Positions 20 to 6,573 of a DNA stretch of 64,000 nt are shown here, in pieces (within the stretch, counting starts at the first letter, position 1; every line of letters starts with the position of its first letter). This stretch comes from Candidatus Nitrososphaera evergladensis SR1. GTDB taxonomy: Archaea; Thermoproteota; Nitrososphaeria; Nitrososphaerales; Nitrososphaeraceae. The notes beneath the pieces were generated by a model that was given only the letters and a program-made list of their open reading frames with translations, ran no database searches and was not told where the DNA came from. Position numbers and translations under genes: made by a program. The stretch is from contig NZ_CP007174.1 in the NCBI RefSeq assembly GCF_000730285.1, positions 1 through 64,000 on the forward strand, in the 5' to 3' direction.

Positions 20-1381
20 GTGGTAAGCGCGCAGGATATCGAGCGGATGGCGGCACAGGCCGAGCAGGAAAACTCGCTTTTTGCCGCCAAGGGCGCCCTT
101 GACACCTTCAGCTCCAGTTCAAAAACACAGGCTATAGGGCGCGAGGCAGAGGCCGGCCAGCTAGTAAAGGCGCTTGCAGGAGGGCAAAAGCAAGGGTACG
201 TGTCACCCTTTGTCTTTGTGTACGGGAGGAGCGGCTCGGGCAAGTCCACAGTCGTTCAGTTTGTGTGCGAGCACCTGCCGCGGCTCCTTGCATTCCGGCT
301 TGTCAACCTTCGCAGGGTAAGGACCGTCTACGGCTGCGCGTGCCTCATCCTTGAGGAGCTTGGAGGCGACCCAAAGGGCGGCCAGACCATAGACTCTATC
401 ATAGAAAGGATTGCAGGAGGCATCGAAGCATTGGCAGCAGCAAAGTTCTTTGTCCTTGTGCTGGACGAGTTTGACGTTTTGCTGCATGACAAACGCGGCA
501 GGGCGTCTGACTTTGTCTACAAGCTTTTGGCGGTGCAGCAAAAGCTCCGGGAGGAAAAAGGGTGCATGGTGTGCGTTATTGCCATTTCAAACAACGTGAT
601 GGCGGCAGAAGAGATGGACGACAGGGTGAGGTCGAGGATAGGGTCGTGCCCGGAGGTGTTTTTTGACGCGTACCAGAAGGAGGAGGTTGTTGCGATATTG
701 AAGGACAGGGCGGCAAGGGCCTTTGTACAGCCTGTTGGTGATGAAGTGATAGAGTACTGCGCCGAGAAGAGCTCGCAGGAGCATGGCGACGCAAGGAGGG
801 CCATTGACCTGTTGAGGATGGCGGCCGAGATTGCCGGGGCGGAAGGCGGCAAGAATGTTTCAAAATTACATATAGACATGGCCGAGGAGCGGCTGCAGAA
901 GGACAGGGTTGAAAGGGCGCTTTCTCAGGCGTCCTACCACCAGAAGGTTGCGGCCGGCGCGCTTGTGAGGATAACGTACCTGACGCAGGACGCCGGCGAA
1001 AGCTGGTATTCTACGTCGACGCTCTACAGGCAGTACTGCATGTCGATCAGGAAAACTGTCAGGCCGCTTTCGTACAGGCGGGTTGCAGAGCTGTTCTCGG
1101 AGCTGGAAAGCGCGGGGCTTGCGGTTTCAAGGACAGGCTCGAAAGGAAGGCACGGGTACGGGCGGGAGTACAAGCTAACCCTGCCGCCGGAGGTCGTCGG
1201 CAGCAAGTGCCTGCCGGACTGGTGGAAGATACTGGTGGAGCAGAAGAAAAAGCACGAGGAGAGGATGGAGAAGTACAAGGAAGAGGCAAACAAGTCGGAT
1301 ATGCCGGAGCCGATGAGGCGGTGTATGCGCGACGCGGAGAAGCTGGACAAGGAGAGCTGGGCTGCCTTTGTAGGACTCTAA
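20..1381 (+). CDS. cdc6: Orc1/Cdc6 replication initiator
   Basis: AAA+ origin-recognition and helicase-loading protein of archaeal replication. Visible motifs: Walker A GRSGSGKST at about residues 69-77, Walker B VLVLDEFD at about 145-152, sensor 1 around ISNN at 190, and sensor 2 GDARR at about 256-260; the last ~150 residues fit the winged-helix DNA-binding domain. The start shown is a GTG at position 20, but the frame stays open to the left edge, so the true start could lie outside the window. Family identity is firm. An origin may lie next to this gene, but I see no convincing origin repeats in the few bases available upstream or in the 88 bp downstream. Confidence 0.93.
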   Translation: MVSAQDIERMAAQAEQENSLFAAKGALDTFSSSSKTQAIGREAEAGQLVKALAGGQKQGYVSPFVFVYGRSGSGKSTVVQFVCEHLPRLLAFRLVNLRRVRTVYGCACLILEELGGDPKGGQTIDSIIERIAGGIEALAAAKFFVLVLDEFDVLLHDKRGRASDFVYKLLAVQQKLREEKGCMVCVIAISNNVMAAEEMDDRVRSRIGSCPEVFFDAYQKEEVVAILKDRAARAFVQPVGDEVIEYCAEKSSQEHGDARRAIDLLRMAAEIAGAEGGKNVSKLHIDMAEERLQKDRVERALSQASYHQKVAAGALVRITYLTQDAGESWYSTSTLYRQYCMSIRKTVRPLSYRRVAELFSELESAGLAVSRTGSKGRHGYGREYKLTLPPEVVGSKCLPDWWKILVEQKKKHEERMEKYKEEANKSDMPEPMRRCMRDAEKLDKESWAAFVGL

Positions 1382-2858: not shown

Positions 2859-2955
2859 TACAGAATTCTGATGTTACATGTATGAACATGTTATAACATA
2901 CCCCCTCTCCCCAGGGTGCTAGCTGAGTTATAGGCAAAGCATCAGGTTCAGCTCT

Positions 2956-3807
2956 ATGCTCAACCGCAACCAAACCCTGCAATATTTCTGCTCCAAATGC
3001 AATTCGTTGCTAAGATGTACAACGGCAAATGTCGATCCTAGTAAAATTATCGAACCTTGTCCCAATTGTGGAAACTCGCTGGCCGAGAGCTTGGAGATCC
3101 GCCGACCCAAGCAAAAAGATGATGAAGTATTGTTGCCAGAATTCCAGATTGCGCAAGCAGTTCCAGCCCTCACTTTTGACCTAAAACAGATAGATGCTTT
3201 TTTTCTAGGGTCAAGGATAGGCGATATCCTCTGCATCGTGGGTTCAAGAGAAACCTTGCTTGCCAGCAGGCTGTCTGTACGAGCCCTGCTTCCAAAGAGA
3301 CTGGGCGGCCTAGAGTCGCACGTTTTGTTCATCGACGGCGGAAACAATTCTGACATCTACCAGTGCGTGAATTTTGCTAGGCAGTACGGCCTAGACATCA
3401 AAAAAGTCCTTGAAGGAATAGTAGTCAGCAGGACTTTTACCATCCACCAGCTAGCATGGCTTGTCATTCACGAGCTACCAAAAGCCATAGAGCGGTTTGG
3501 TTCCAAGCTTGTCATCATTTCTGGCATCCTGACCCTGTTTACTCAAGATCCACAGGTGGATCAAAAGGAGGCAAGGCGGTTGCTGCGGGAAATGATGATT
3601 GCGATAAAGAGGATTTCAGGCAAGGCGCTCGTAGTCATCACGGCTGACAGCATACATGGGTACGAAGACATATTCGCCAAGCTCAAAAACAGGATTAAAA
3701 TTCAGAATGCAGAAAGCGGCATCATCAAACTTTTTGCGTCAACCCCGTACAGGTCCAAAGAAATCGTTCTGCCAGAAAAGTCCCTAAAGCTGGTCAAGGT
3801 GGAATAA
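2956..3807 (+). CDS. RecA/RadA-fold protein lacking Walker A, with N-terminal zinc finger
   Basis: 283 residues. N-terminal zinc-binding pairs CSKC (12-15) and CPNC (35-38), followed by a RecA/Rad51-like core. The segment RIGDILCIVGSRETLLASR (87-105) aligns with the Rad51 strand-P-loop region but has no GKT/GKS, so ATP binding by the usual loop is unlikely. Later blocks (HVLFIDGGNN at ~122-131, an R-x-F after strand 3, hydrophobic strand KLVIIS at ~184-189) follow the RadA order. It is the first gene of a coupled operon with two small proteins and a PolB-like polymerase, 3 bp before the next start. Inferred role: accessory factor that docks the polymerase on RadA filaments or DNA, analogous to ImuA or the RadA-like gene of the Sulfolobus dpo2 operon. 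Confidence 0.72.
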   Translation: MLNRNQTLQYFCSKCNSLLRCTTANVDPSKIIEPCPNCGNSLAESLEIRRPKQKDDEVLLPEFQIAQAVPALTFDLKQIDAFFLGSRIGDILCIVGSRETLLASRLSVRALLPKRLGGLESHVLFIDGGNNSDIYQCVNFARQYGLDIKKVLEGIVVSRTFTIHQLAWLVIHELPKAIERFGSKLVIISGILTLFTQDPQVDQKEARRLLREMMIAIKRISGKALVVITADSIHGYEDIFAKLKNRIKIQNAESGIIKLFASTPYRSKEIVLPEKSLKLVKVE

Positions 3808-3810
3808 AAA

Positions 3811-4089
3811 GTGGGGCGTACAATACCTGCATTCCGGCTTGCACAGATGTACGAAGAAGCCGAATGGAAGCCTTTCAGAAACACCCTTTCCAAATCAGAA
3901 AGGAAAGAGTTTGACAGAATGTTTGCCACTTCCCGGCTTTACATCTCTGCCTGCTCCTATGCTGCCAAGCCAATAAGGATACAGCCAATATTCATGGCAA
4001 TCATCTTCCATCATTACAGGCAGCTCGTAGAGATTAGCGAAAAATTGGAAATAAAGGAGGTCCCAGTCAGTGAGCCTATTTCCAGATAA
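3811..4089 (+). CDS. Small protein of PolB2 operon, paralogue 1
   Basis: 92 residues, GTG start 3 bp after the RecA-like stop. I do not recognise a named family. It aligns along most of its length with the next gene: shared pattern EW/SWKxF, SLxxxxRKxF, M at mid-length, Y-x-A/S, then a hydrophobic stretch F-MAxIF followed by polar residues. This indicates a tandem duplication. Predicted mainly alpha-helical and soluble; no cysteine cluster or signal peptide. The 20-bp overlap with the next gene points to translational coupling and a stoichiometric partnership, perhaps as a heterodimer that bridges the RecA-like protein and the polymerase (inference from context only). Confidence 0.68.
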   Translation: MGRTIPAFRLAQMYEEAEWKPFRNTLSKSERKEFDRMFATSRLYISACSYAAKPIRIQPIFMAIIFHHYRQLVEISEKLEIKEVPVSEPISR

Positions 4090-4327
4090 AGACATATTGG
4101 CTCGAGAAATCGAGTCTTGGAAGGGCTTTGCAGACAGCCTCCGGGCAGAGGACAGAAAGCTGTTCACAACAATGCTGGATAACTGCCACATTTACGCCGC
4201 TGCAATCAACGCCAAGGGAGAGCCATTCCCAACAGAGGCCCTGCTAATGGCTCTGATATTCCAGCAGCAGCGGATGATAAACTGGTTCATAGAGCAAGTA
4301 AAGGCAAGGAAGAAGAAGAGCACATGA
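4070..4327 (+). CDS. Small protein of PolB2 operon, paralogue 2
   Basis: 85 residues from a GTG at 4070, beginning inside the 3' end of its paralogue and ending in ATGA overlap with the polymerase gene. Shared residues with paralogue 1 include WKxF, LxxxxRKxF, YxAA and LMALIFQQQR. The C-terminus is basic (VKARKKKST), which would suit contact with nucleic acid. Function is unknown; being sandwiched between a RecA-like gene and a DNA polymerase with overlaps on both sides, it is probably a subunit or loader of that polymerase. An alternative is a small helical nucleic-acid-binding regulator. Confidence 0.68.
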   Translation: MSLFPDKDILAREIESWKGFADSLRAEDRKLFTTMLDNCHIYAAAINAKGEPFPTEALLMALIFQQQRMINWFIEQVKARKKKST

Positions 4328-6573
4328 CGGTCAAGGGGTGGCTGCTCGATGCTTACCCATCGGAAGACAAGATGGTATTTTGGGTCAAGCAGGAAAACGG
4401 CAAAACAATCAGGCTTGAAAGCAGCTGGACGCCTTCGATCTATGTCGCTACTGATAACAAATCCGACTTTTCGGCAATCCTGCACGACCCTGAATTGCCA
4501 TCTATGGTACGCGCACATGAAGTAGTCTCTAGGTACGAGCGCGTCATAGATAGAGAAGAGTCCAAGGTCCTGCGGCTGGAGCTGAGCAAATCCAGCGTGG
4601 CGACGCGGCTTGCAGAAAGGATAGAGCTTCTTGGCCCGTTTGGCAAGTTCAGGCTGTACAACGTCGACCTTTTGCCCGCGCAGTCGTATTTGTATGAGCA
4701 TGAACTCTTTCCGCTGGCGTATTGCGAGGTTAACCCCTCCAGTCCCGTGCTCAAGTGGGATGTCTTGGACGATGTCTGGTCCACCGACTACACAGTGCCT
4801 GATCTCAAAATCCTGAATCTTGACGTCAGCCTCAGAAAAGAAGCAAAGCTTCCAAGGTTCAGCGACAAGGTAGCGTCGATTACTCTTGCCGGAAAGGACG
4901 GCAAAAAAATAATGGTTGAAGCCAAATCCGAAATAGAGATCTTTCAAGCGCTTGAGAGAGAAATCGCAAGGATTGACCCCGACTTTATACTCGTACAAGA
5001 CGGGGACTCTTTTGTCTTTCCGTACCTCATCCACAGGGCGGCAGAAAACGGCGTCTCCCTTTCATTGAGCAGAGAGTCTACGCGGCTGAGAAAGCCAAAG
5101 AAGGAAGGAACGTCGTACTTTTCGTACGGCAGGATACAGTTCAAGCCCACAGCCGTCAAGCTGCGAGGCAGGATCCATATCGACACCCGCAATTCGTTCA
5201 CGCTGGACGAAACGGGGCTGCACGGCCTGTACGAGATAGCAAGGATATGCCGGATGCCCCTTCACACTGCCTCAAGGGCCTCGATAGGCAAGTGCCTGAG
5301 CAGCCTGCAGTTCTACCATGCCCACAAGAAGGGGCTGCTTGTACCGTGGAAACCGGTGCTGGTAGAACATTTCAAGACCTACGGAGAATTGCTGGTTGCA
5401 GACAGGGGCGGCTTTCTCTTTGAGCCAAGAACAGGAGTCTATGAACAGGCGGCAGAGTTTGACTTTGCTTCCCTCTATCCATCCATAATGTTCCAGAAAA
5501 ACGTCTCTGCCGAGACGGTCAGATGCCCTTGCTGCCCCGACTCTAAGGAAAGGGTCCCAGAGCTGGGCTACAACATCTGCGAGAAAAGAAGAGGGATTGT
5601 CCCGCAGGCGCTTAAAATAGTCATCAAGAAACGAGCCATGTACAAAGAACTGAAAAAGAACGCAACAGACGACATACAAAAAGCAATTTACGATGAAAGG
5701 CAGTCCGTACTAAAATGGATTAATGTCACATCCTTTGGCTACCTTGGGTTCAACAATGCGAAATTTGGCAGGATAGACGCCCATATCGCGGTCTGCGCTT
5801 TTGACAGACAGCTTTTCCTTCAGGCCACCAGAATAGCTGAAAGGATGGGCTTTAGGGTCCTGCACGGGATTGTTGATTCGCTATGGCTGCAGAAGCAAAA
5901 CGCGACTATGGACGACTACGCCGCATTGAAAGAAGCGATAGAGTGTGAGACGGGCTTTTCCATTTCTTTTGAAGGTGTCTACAAGTGGATAGTATTTTTC
6001 CAGTCCAAGGAAAGCGACGAGCTTCCAGCGGCCAACCGGTATTTCGGAGCTTTTCAGGACGGAAGCCTGAAGATAAGGGGAATAGAGGCCCGGCGACACG
6101 ATACTCCTCCTCTTTTCGTAAAGTTCCAGCACCACATCTTGAAGATAATGGCAAGAGGCGACAGTATAGCCGATGTCAGATTGCTAATGACAGAGGTCCG
6201 ACAGGTCTTTGATGACTATGCTGCCGCCATTAGAGATGGCAGGGTCTCTGCAGATGACCTGGTGTTTACCAAGCAATTATCAAAAGATGCCGGCCAATAT
6301 CAAGAGCGAAATACAATTGAAAATAATTCAATGTCCCAGCTTGCCAGAGAAGGCAAGAGCCTGAAGGCGGGGCAGATATTGAGATACGTAATTACCGACT
6401 ACTACCGCGATAGGCACACTACGCCAGAGGAGTTCCTAGATGAAAAAACGCAAATTGATTCAAAGAAATATGTCGAAATTCTTGCAGAAATGTGCAATTC
6501 TGTAACCGAACCGTTTGGCCTGCGAATAAAACCCGATGATGACAAAGGAGGCCACCATCAGTTGCAGCTATAG
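4324..6573 (+). CDS. Divergent family B DNA polymerase (PolB2/Dpo2-like)
   Basis: 749 residues, ATG overlapping the previous stop. Order of family B blocks is kept: degenerate 3'-5' exonuclease domain (~160-320), palm motif A DFASLYPS (D380), fingers motif B K464-xx-N467 with SFGY in place of SxYG, and motif C HGIVDS (514-519). In usual PolB enzymes motif C is YGDTDS; here the first Asp is Ile516 while the second Asp (D518) and motif A Asp remain. Exo I reads LDVS instead of DIE (D167, no Glu) and Exo II reads GDSFVFPYL with Val231 where Asp is expected, so proofreading is probably lost. This pattern and the RecA-like neighbour match archaeal PolB2/Dpo2, implicated in damage tolerance in Sulfolobales. 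It is unlikely to be the main replicase. Confidence 0.88.
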   Translation: MTVKGWLLDAYPSEDKMVFWVKQENGKTIRLESSWTPSIYVATDNKSDFSAILHDPELPSMVRAHEVVSRYERVIDREESKVLRLELSKSSVATRLAERIELLGPFGKFRLYNVDLLPAQSYLYEHELFPLAYCEVNPSSPVLKWDVLDDVWSTDYTVPDLKILNLDVSLRKEAKLPRFSDKVASITLAGKDGKKIMVEAKSEIEIFQALEREIARIDPDFILVQDGDSFVFPYLIHRAAENGVSLSLSRESTRLRKPKKEGTSYFSYGRIQFKPTAVKLRGRIHIDTRNSFTLDETGLHGLYEIARICRMPLHTASRASIGKCLSSLQFYHAHKKGLLVPWKPVLVEHFKTYGELLVADRGGFLFEPRTGVYEQAAEFDFASLYPSIMFQKNVSAETVRCPCCPDSKERVPELGYNICEKRRGIVPQALKIVIKKRAMYKELKKNATDDIQKAIYDERQSVLKWINVTSFGYLGFNNAKFGRIDAHIAVCAFDRQLFLQATRIAERMGFRVLHGIVDSLWLQKQNATMDDYAALKEAIECETGFSISFEGVYKWIVFFQSKESDELPAANRYFGAFQDGSLKIRGIEARRHDTPPLFVKFQHHILKIMARGDSIADVRLLMTEVRQVFDDYAAAIRDGRVSADDLVFTKQLSKDAGQYQERNTIENNSMSQLAREGKSLKAGQILRYVITDYYRDRHTTPEEFLDEKTQIDSKKYVEILAEMCNSVTEPFGLRIKPDDDKGGHHQLQL

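Follow-up and report, generated by a model that had tools for sequence, protein, structure and literature searches.

A predicted PolB2 mutasome operon with duplicated PPB2 in Candidatus Nitrososphaera evergladensis, and promoter elements in common with radA and other repair genes

Four coupled genes in Candidatus Nitrososphaera evergladensis SR1 probably encode a damage-tolerance DNA polymerase of the PolB2 mutasome kind, a reading to which we assign a probability of about 0.8. The genes lie on the forward strand of the window, which here means the 64,000 nucleotides from position 1 to 64,000 of contig NZ_CP007174.1. The open reading frames span positions 2956 to 3807, 3811 to 4089, 4070 to 4327, and 4324 to 6573 and are joined, in order, by a 3-nucleotide gap, a 20-nucleotide overlap, and a 4-nucleotide ATGA overlap, exactly as in a preliminary description made from the sequence alone. 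That description had also proposed profile searches of the products, and Pfam and NCBIfam assigned the first to Rad51 and the fourth to the family-B polymerases but gave no family match for either small protein. The PolB2 mutasome was described by Timinskas et al. 2025 (PMC11791011) as PolB2 together with iRadA, an inactive RadA relative, and a PPB2 trimer. The window genes adjoin on one strand in the order iRadA-PPB2-PolB2 and match that system in their three components, gene order, and motifs, which supports the mutasome function that the preliminary description had suggested and that we predict for this thaumarchaeal lineage. We conclude that the system is of a kind already known, including its variant with duplicated PPB2.

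The product of positions 4324 to 6573 was identified as PolB2 by matches to PF00136 (1.7e-35) and NCBIfam PRK05761 (1.7e-124). Motif A is intact (DFASLYPSI), but motif C reads IVD in place of DxD (HGIVDS, positions 5863 to 5880), and the isoleucine that replaces the first catalytic aspartate is found in 99% of 104 PolB2 sequences. Moreover, the exonuclease site is broken, with LDVS for DIE and a degenerate Exo III, as expected of the divergent polymerase with degenerate proofreading that had been claimed. Nor is this the organism's only family-B polymerase, as the one other in the genome retains YGDTDS and the exonuclease motifs DIE/NGDDFD. A D(R/K)GG motif, DRGG in the window protein (positions 5401 to 5412), is the predicted contact of the PPB2 arm and is nearly invariant across the 104 sequences (D, 100%; R/K, 99%; G, 100%). 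The motif is preceded by a QFYxA segment (Ala, 99%; Phe, 71%), the location of which agrees with the Rad51-like manner in which iRadA is docked on PolB2 in the published model. Another PolB2-like group, divergent at about 27% identity and mostly with an intact DxD, was found at 10 loci. Its neighbors there are canonical radA and a gene for an inactive RadA, which sometimes has a PPB2-like domain at its C terminus.

The first gene of the operon encodes a protein with the Rad51 fold that lacks both the N-terminal helical domain and the ATPase residues, which is how the iRadA subunit of the mutasome is recognized. The protein matched Pfam Rad51 at 2.1e-9, and its AlphaFold model (predicted local distance difference test [pLDDT] score of 88) gave RAD51/RadA chains as the top matches in the PDB (E value of 3e-15). 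In alignments of 10 to 23 orthologs, iRadA could be aligned to RadA but had no Walker A motif, with CIVGSRETLLA at the position where the separate canonical RadA of the same genome (match at C1:1578374-1578670) has GEFGSGKSQ. The RecA/RadA-fold protein without Walker A of the preliminary description was thereby confirmed. An N-terminal CxxC...CxxC pattern predicts a zinc ribbon in most complete iRadA proteins of the order, including the window protein (CSKC...CPNC, residues 12 to 38, positions 2989 to 3069). The ribbon is gone from several genera of the order and was present in 1 of 11 proteins from outside it. A QxxLxxFF clamp-binding motif was not seen by eye, the only means used, at the C terminus of iRadA or PolB2; such a motif is reported near the C terminus of one or the other in only a fraction of PolB2 mutasomes (PMC11791011). 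At one locus, canonical radA was found directly upstream of the iRadA operon.

The two small proteins are homologs of one another (phmmer, 1e-6), as the preliminary description had held, but the family it regarded as unnamed is PPB2, or arCOG07300, for which duplications with only one armed copy are described (PMC11791011). PPB2a (positions 3811 to 4089, GTG start) is a small helical partner that begins with MGRTIPAFR, the N-terminal arm that defines PPB2, and the arm residues G2, R3, T4, P6, and F8 were invariant in the alignment. PPB2b (positions 4070 to 4327, GTG start) carries a motif of its own, MxLFPxxDI..EIESW, and the MGRT arm was missing from every PPB2b copy examined. A tree of 140 PPB2 domains placed PPB2a in one clade (99/90) and PPB2b in another (100/99), a split found in every bootstrap tree, although the alignment has few columns and some PPB2b branches are long. 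Outside the order, most PPB2-bearing genomes of the phylum sample have a single armed PPB2 in a one-copy operon. The topology fits one duplication event early in the history of the order. Both copies have been kept since, and in several genomes, including those of the Nitrosocosmicus type, they are fused head to tail as PPB2a-PPB2b. Sequence searches found no PPB2 homolog of solved structure. Because only one PPB2 arm of three is inserted in the published multimer models, which depict a heteropentameric complex (PMC11791011), PPB2b most likely supplies the arm-less subunits of a mixed PPB2 oligomer.

By this model, PolB2 would be the catalytic subunit, and its weakened proofreading and modified active site would suit the extension of mismatched or lesion-blocked ends. 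The non-hydrolyzing iRadA would bind PolB2 much as RadA subunits bind one another, and the small helical PPB2 oligomer, in this order most likely a mixture of arm-bearing PPB2a and arm-less PPB2b, would insert an MGRT arm into the PolB2-iRadA cleft beside the DNA. The window operon resembles the published mutasome in its MGRT arm, IxD motif C, D(K/R) motif, association with orc1/cdc6 and DUF72, and duplication of PPB2 with an arm-less copy; DUF72 is reported to be enriched beside polB2. In contrast, the main text of PMC11791011 does not mention the iRadA zinc ribbon, the single order-wide origin of PPB2b, PPB2a-PPB2b head-to-tail fusions, or promoter elements common to scattered loci. A 2014 survey (PMC4104785) describes the operon in other archaea, does not list Thaumarchaeota among the holders of PolB2, and discusses earlier work as the first to note the operon. 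The comparison with the Sulfolobus dpo2 operon made in the preliminary description was apt: that operon has the same polymerase family, an inactive RadA relative, and an arCOG07300 protein, and it is damage induced, 21- to 26-fold after 4-nitroquinoline 1-oxide (NQO) (PMC10470591). Unlike the window operon, it has one PPB2, and dpo2 is part of an Orc1-2-centered damage network. The comparison with the bacterial ImuA/DnaE2 pairing holds as analogy and not as homology: bacterial mutasomes (Pol V UmuD'2C-RecA; ImuA/ImuB/DnaE2) likewise combine an error-prone polymerase, a RecA-fold subunit, and a small helper, and similar damage induction may be expected here, but their polymerases (family Y or C rather than B) and small subunits are not homologous. 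An ImuA/ImuB/DnaE2 mutasome proper was rejected, as the polymerase is of family B and no IMS-family domain was found in the operon products with Pfam or NCBIfam.

Co-occurrence of the homologs had been set beforehand as a test of the mutasome reading, and the genes proved nearly always to be present or absent as a set. The survey covered 100 genomes of relatives, 60 of them of good quality, with presence thresholds set by eye at gaps in the E values. Among the good-quality genomes, 35 had PolB2, iRadA, and PPB2, 21 had none of them, and 4 were mixed; the Fisher P value for PolB2 and iRadA was 4e-13, a value that ignores relatedness. In a survey of neighborhoods, also suggested at the outset, the four genes stood together at 47 of 80 related loci from public assemblies, and polB2 stood alone at 19. 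In several genera the genes are scattered, with an iRadA-PPB2a-PPB2b cassette or separate genes away from polB2, and all parts are retained. We conclude that conservation of the operon layout is far beyond chance.

The region upstream of iRadA contains, in order, a candidate operator, AACATGTTATAACAT (positions 2885 to 2899, forward strand), a C-rich element, and a TATA box, the latter two forming a bipartite promoter element, CCCCCTCTCCCCAGGGTGC-N8-TTAT (positions 2901 to 2931, forward strand), with the start codon 24 nucleotides downstream. The pattern CCCTCYCC-N4-RGTG-N6..13-TTWW was present in 18 of 18 genomes of the genus and had no match in the reversed control. Among 85 distinct sites, the gap was 9 nucleotides in 67, and an open reading frame began 22 to 34 nucleotides past TTWW in 51; most complete genomes had about 6 to 14 sites. 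The element preceded canonical radA in 15 of 15 genus genomes with a located radA promoter (12 exact matches and 3 near-matches), 5 of the exact sites being linked by coordinates alone: there the element lies about 400 nucleotides before the RadA match, as it does at the sites inspected directly. It was also found upstream of the iRadA operon, of DUF763 and SWIM zinc finger genes, and of a gene for a DUF72-DinB fusion (Pfam IMS, 1.5e-43; DUF72, 1.6e-23). In nine genomes it preceded the gene for a radical-SAM enzyme, assigned by Pfam to Radical_SAM only, which we take to be photolyase-like (SplB type). The fusion, a single open reading frame joining DUF72 to a Y-family DinB polymerase, was seen at two loci, one of them in the N. 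evergladensis genome itself (C1:1297349 region). Among the other Nitrososphaeraceae, some genera have related C-rich forms upstream of radA; none was seen at radA in two relatives from outside the family.

The operator had 10 exact copies in 70 genomes, against 3 in the reversed control. Of these, eight preceded mutasome genes (six iRadA and two solitary polB2), a ninth preceded a DUF72 operon, and the last lay elsewhere. At two mismatches the 14-base operator pattern gave fewer matches (26) than its reversed control (34), and thus only exact copies were used. Other genera have another site, ATTANGTACNNTACNGTA, of which 2.3 Mb of DNA contained 13 distinct copies, each a short distance ahead of polB2, iRadA, or PPB2a, with none in the control; this evidence is strong but not unbiased because the DNA was enriched for mutasome genes. 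In those genera, PPB2b and some iRadA genes have C-rich variants instead, and unlinked mutasome genes often carry a C-rich or second common element. Nitrosocosmicus-type genomes have an open reading frame of about 33 codons with a KPIRKI-type motif between operator and iRadA at four loci, and another short open reading frame upstream of polB2 at two.

We put at roughly even odds the broader proposal of an SOS-like damage regulon in Nitrososphaera and its relatives, together with an obligate mixed oligomer of PPB2a and PPB2b in the mutasome. In this regulon, radA, the PolB2 mutasome genes (scattered or not), DUF72-DinB, and the photolyase-like radical-SAM enzyme would be under the joint control of the C-rich element and of palindromic operators located at the TATA box. 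The promoter would be of the leaderless type and would combine the C-rich element common to radA, the DinB fusion, and other repair genes with a palindromic operator specific to the mutasome. As the C-rich element is common to radA and repair genes, and by analogy with Sulfolobus, the complex is probably made upon DNA damage, alongside recombination functions.

Several observations weigh against these readings. The literature searched holds no expression, interaction, or mutagenesis data for the lineage, and AlphaFold modeling of a natural PPB2a-PPB2b fusion was too poor for use (pLDDT of 53). Genome G020, although 99% complete, has only a polB2 fragment and no partners, and genomes G012 and G014 have partners without polB2, the iRadA-PPB2a-PPB2b cassette of G012 being decayed. 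Finally, TnpB transposase genes (IS605 type, nine loci) and small zinc-ribbon genes are likewise preceded by the C-rich element, which may thus not be confined to DNA damage. The commonest uncharacterized genes behind the element belong to several tiny zinc-ribbon families of 48 to 82 amino acids.

The breadth of these targets, together with the fixed distance from element to TATA box, would suit an ordinary core-promoter variant, used for example by one paralog of transcription factor B, the targets of which reflect an expression class only. We consider this explanation possible but less likely: the sites are few in each genome yet include every located radA promoter of the genus, the DinB, radical-SAM, SWIM, and DUF763 genes are among the targets, and unlinked mutasome genes tend to carry one or the other element. 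Considerably less probable is the idea that PolB2 is dead and that the iRadA-PPB2-PolB2 complex regulates origins or stalled forks with the neighboring Orc1/Cdc6 (Makarova et al. 2014; PMC4104785). Replacement of the catalytic aspartate and exonuclease residues agrees with it, as does the orc1/cdc6 gene 1.5 kb upstream (positions 20 to 1381, forward strand; TIGR02928, 2e-61). However, the motif A aspartate and the second aspartate of motif C were conserved in 100% of the 104 sequences, which is not expected of a dead enzyme, and the PolB2 of Sulfolobus, which shows the same substitution, reportedly retains activity and is required for mutagenesis induced by damage (PMC11791011). Moreover, a homolog of the window orc gene was found at just 1 of 60 other related loci searched. 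Carriage of the operon by a mobile or defense island is very improbable, since, despite an ApeA homolog directly upstream (positions 1470 to 2858), a patchy distribution in the genus, and a resemblance to element-borne polymerases, ApeA was found at 0 of 60 other related loci searched, the PPB2a and PPB2b trees group largely by archaeal family, and the polymerase, being PolB2, is neither a casposon nor a protein-primed enzyme. The ApeA-like anti-phage gene is itself frame-broken near position 2030, with ApeA_NTD1 1-185 in one frame and ApeA_NTD1 191-271 plus a HEPN domain in the next.

We therefore favor a PolB2 mutasome under promoter elements that look new in being common to the mutasome operon, the chief recombination gene of the cell, and further genes of DNA repair; the literature searched, which excluded subscription papers, contained no description of these elements or of a Nitrososphaera damage response. 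The arm-bearing and arm-less PPB2 pair and its natural fusions bear on the published homotrimer model of PPB2. Ammonia-oxidizing archaea are abundant in soil, and to our knowledge their DNA damage response has not been described. The data suggest that they may have an SOS-like regulon, for which the elements, by tying radA to two translesion polymerase systems and to a candidate repair enzyme, offer a specific set of genes and a site of 29 bp.

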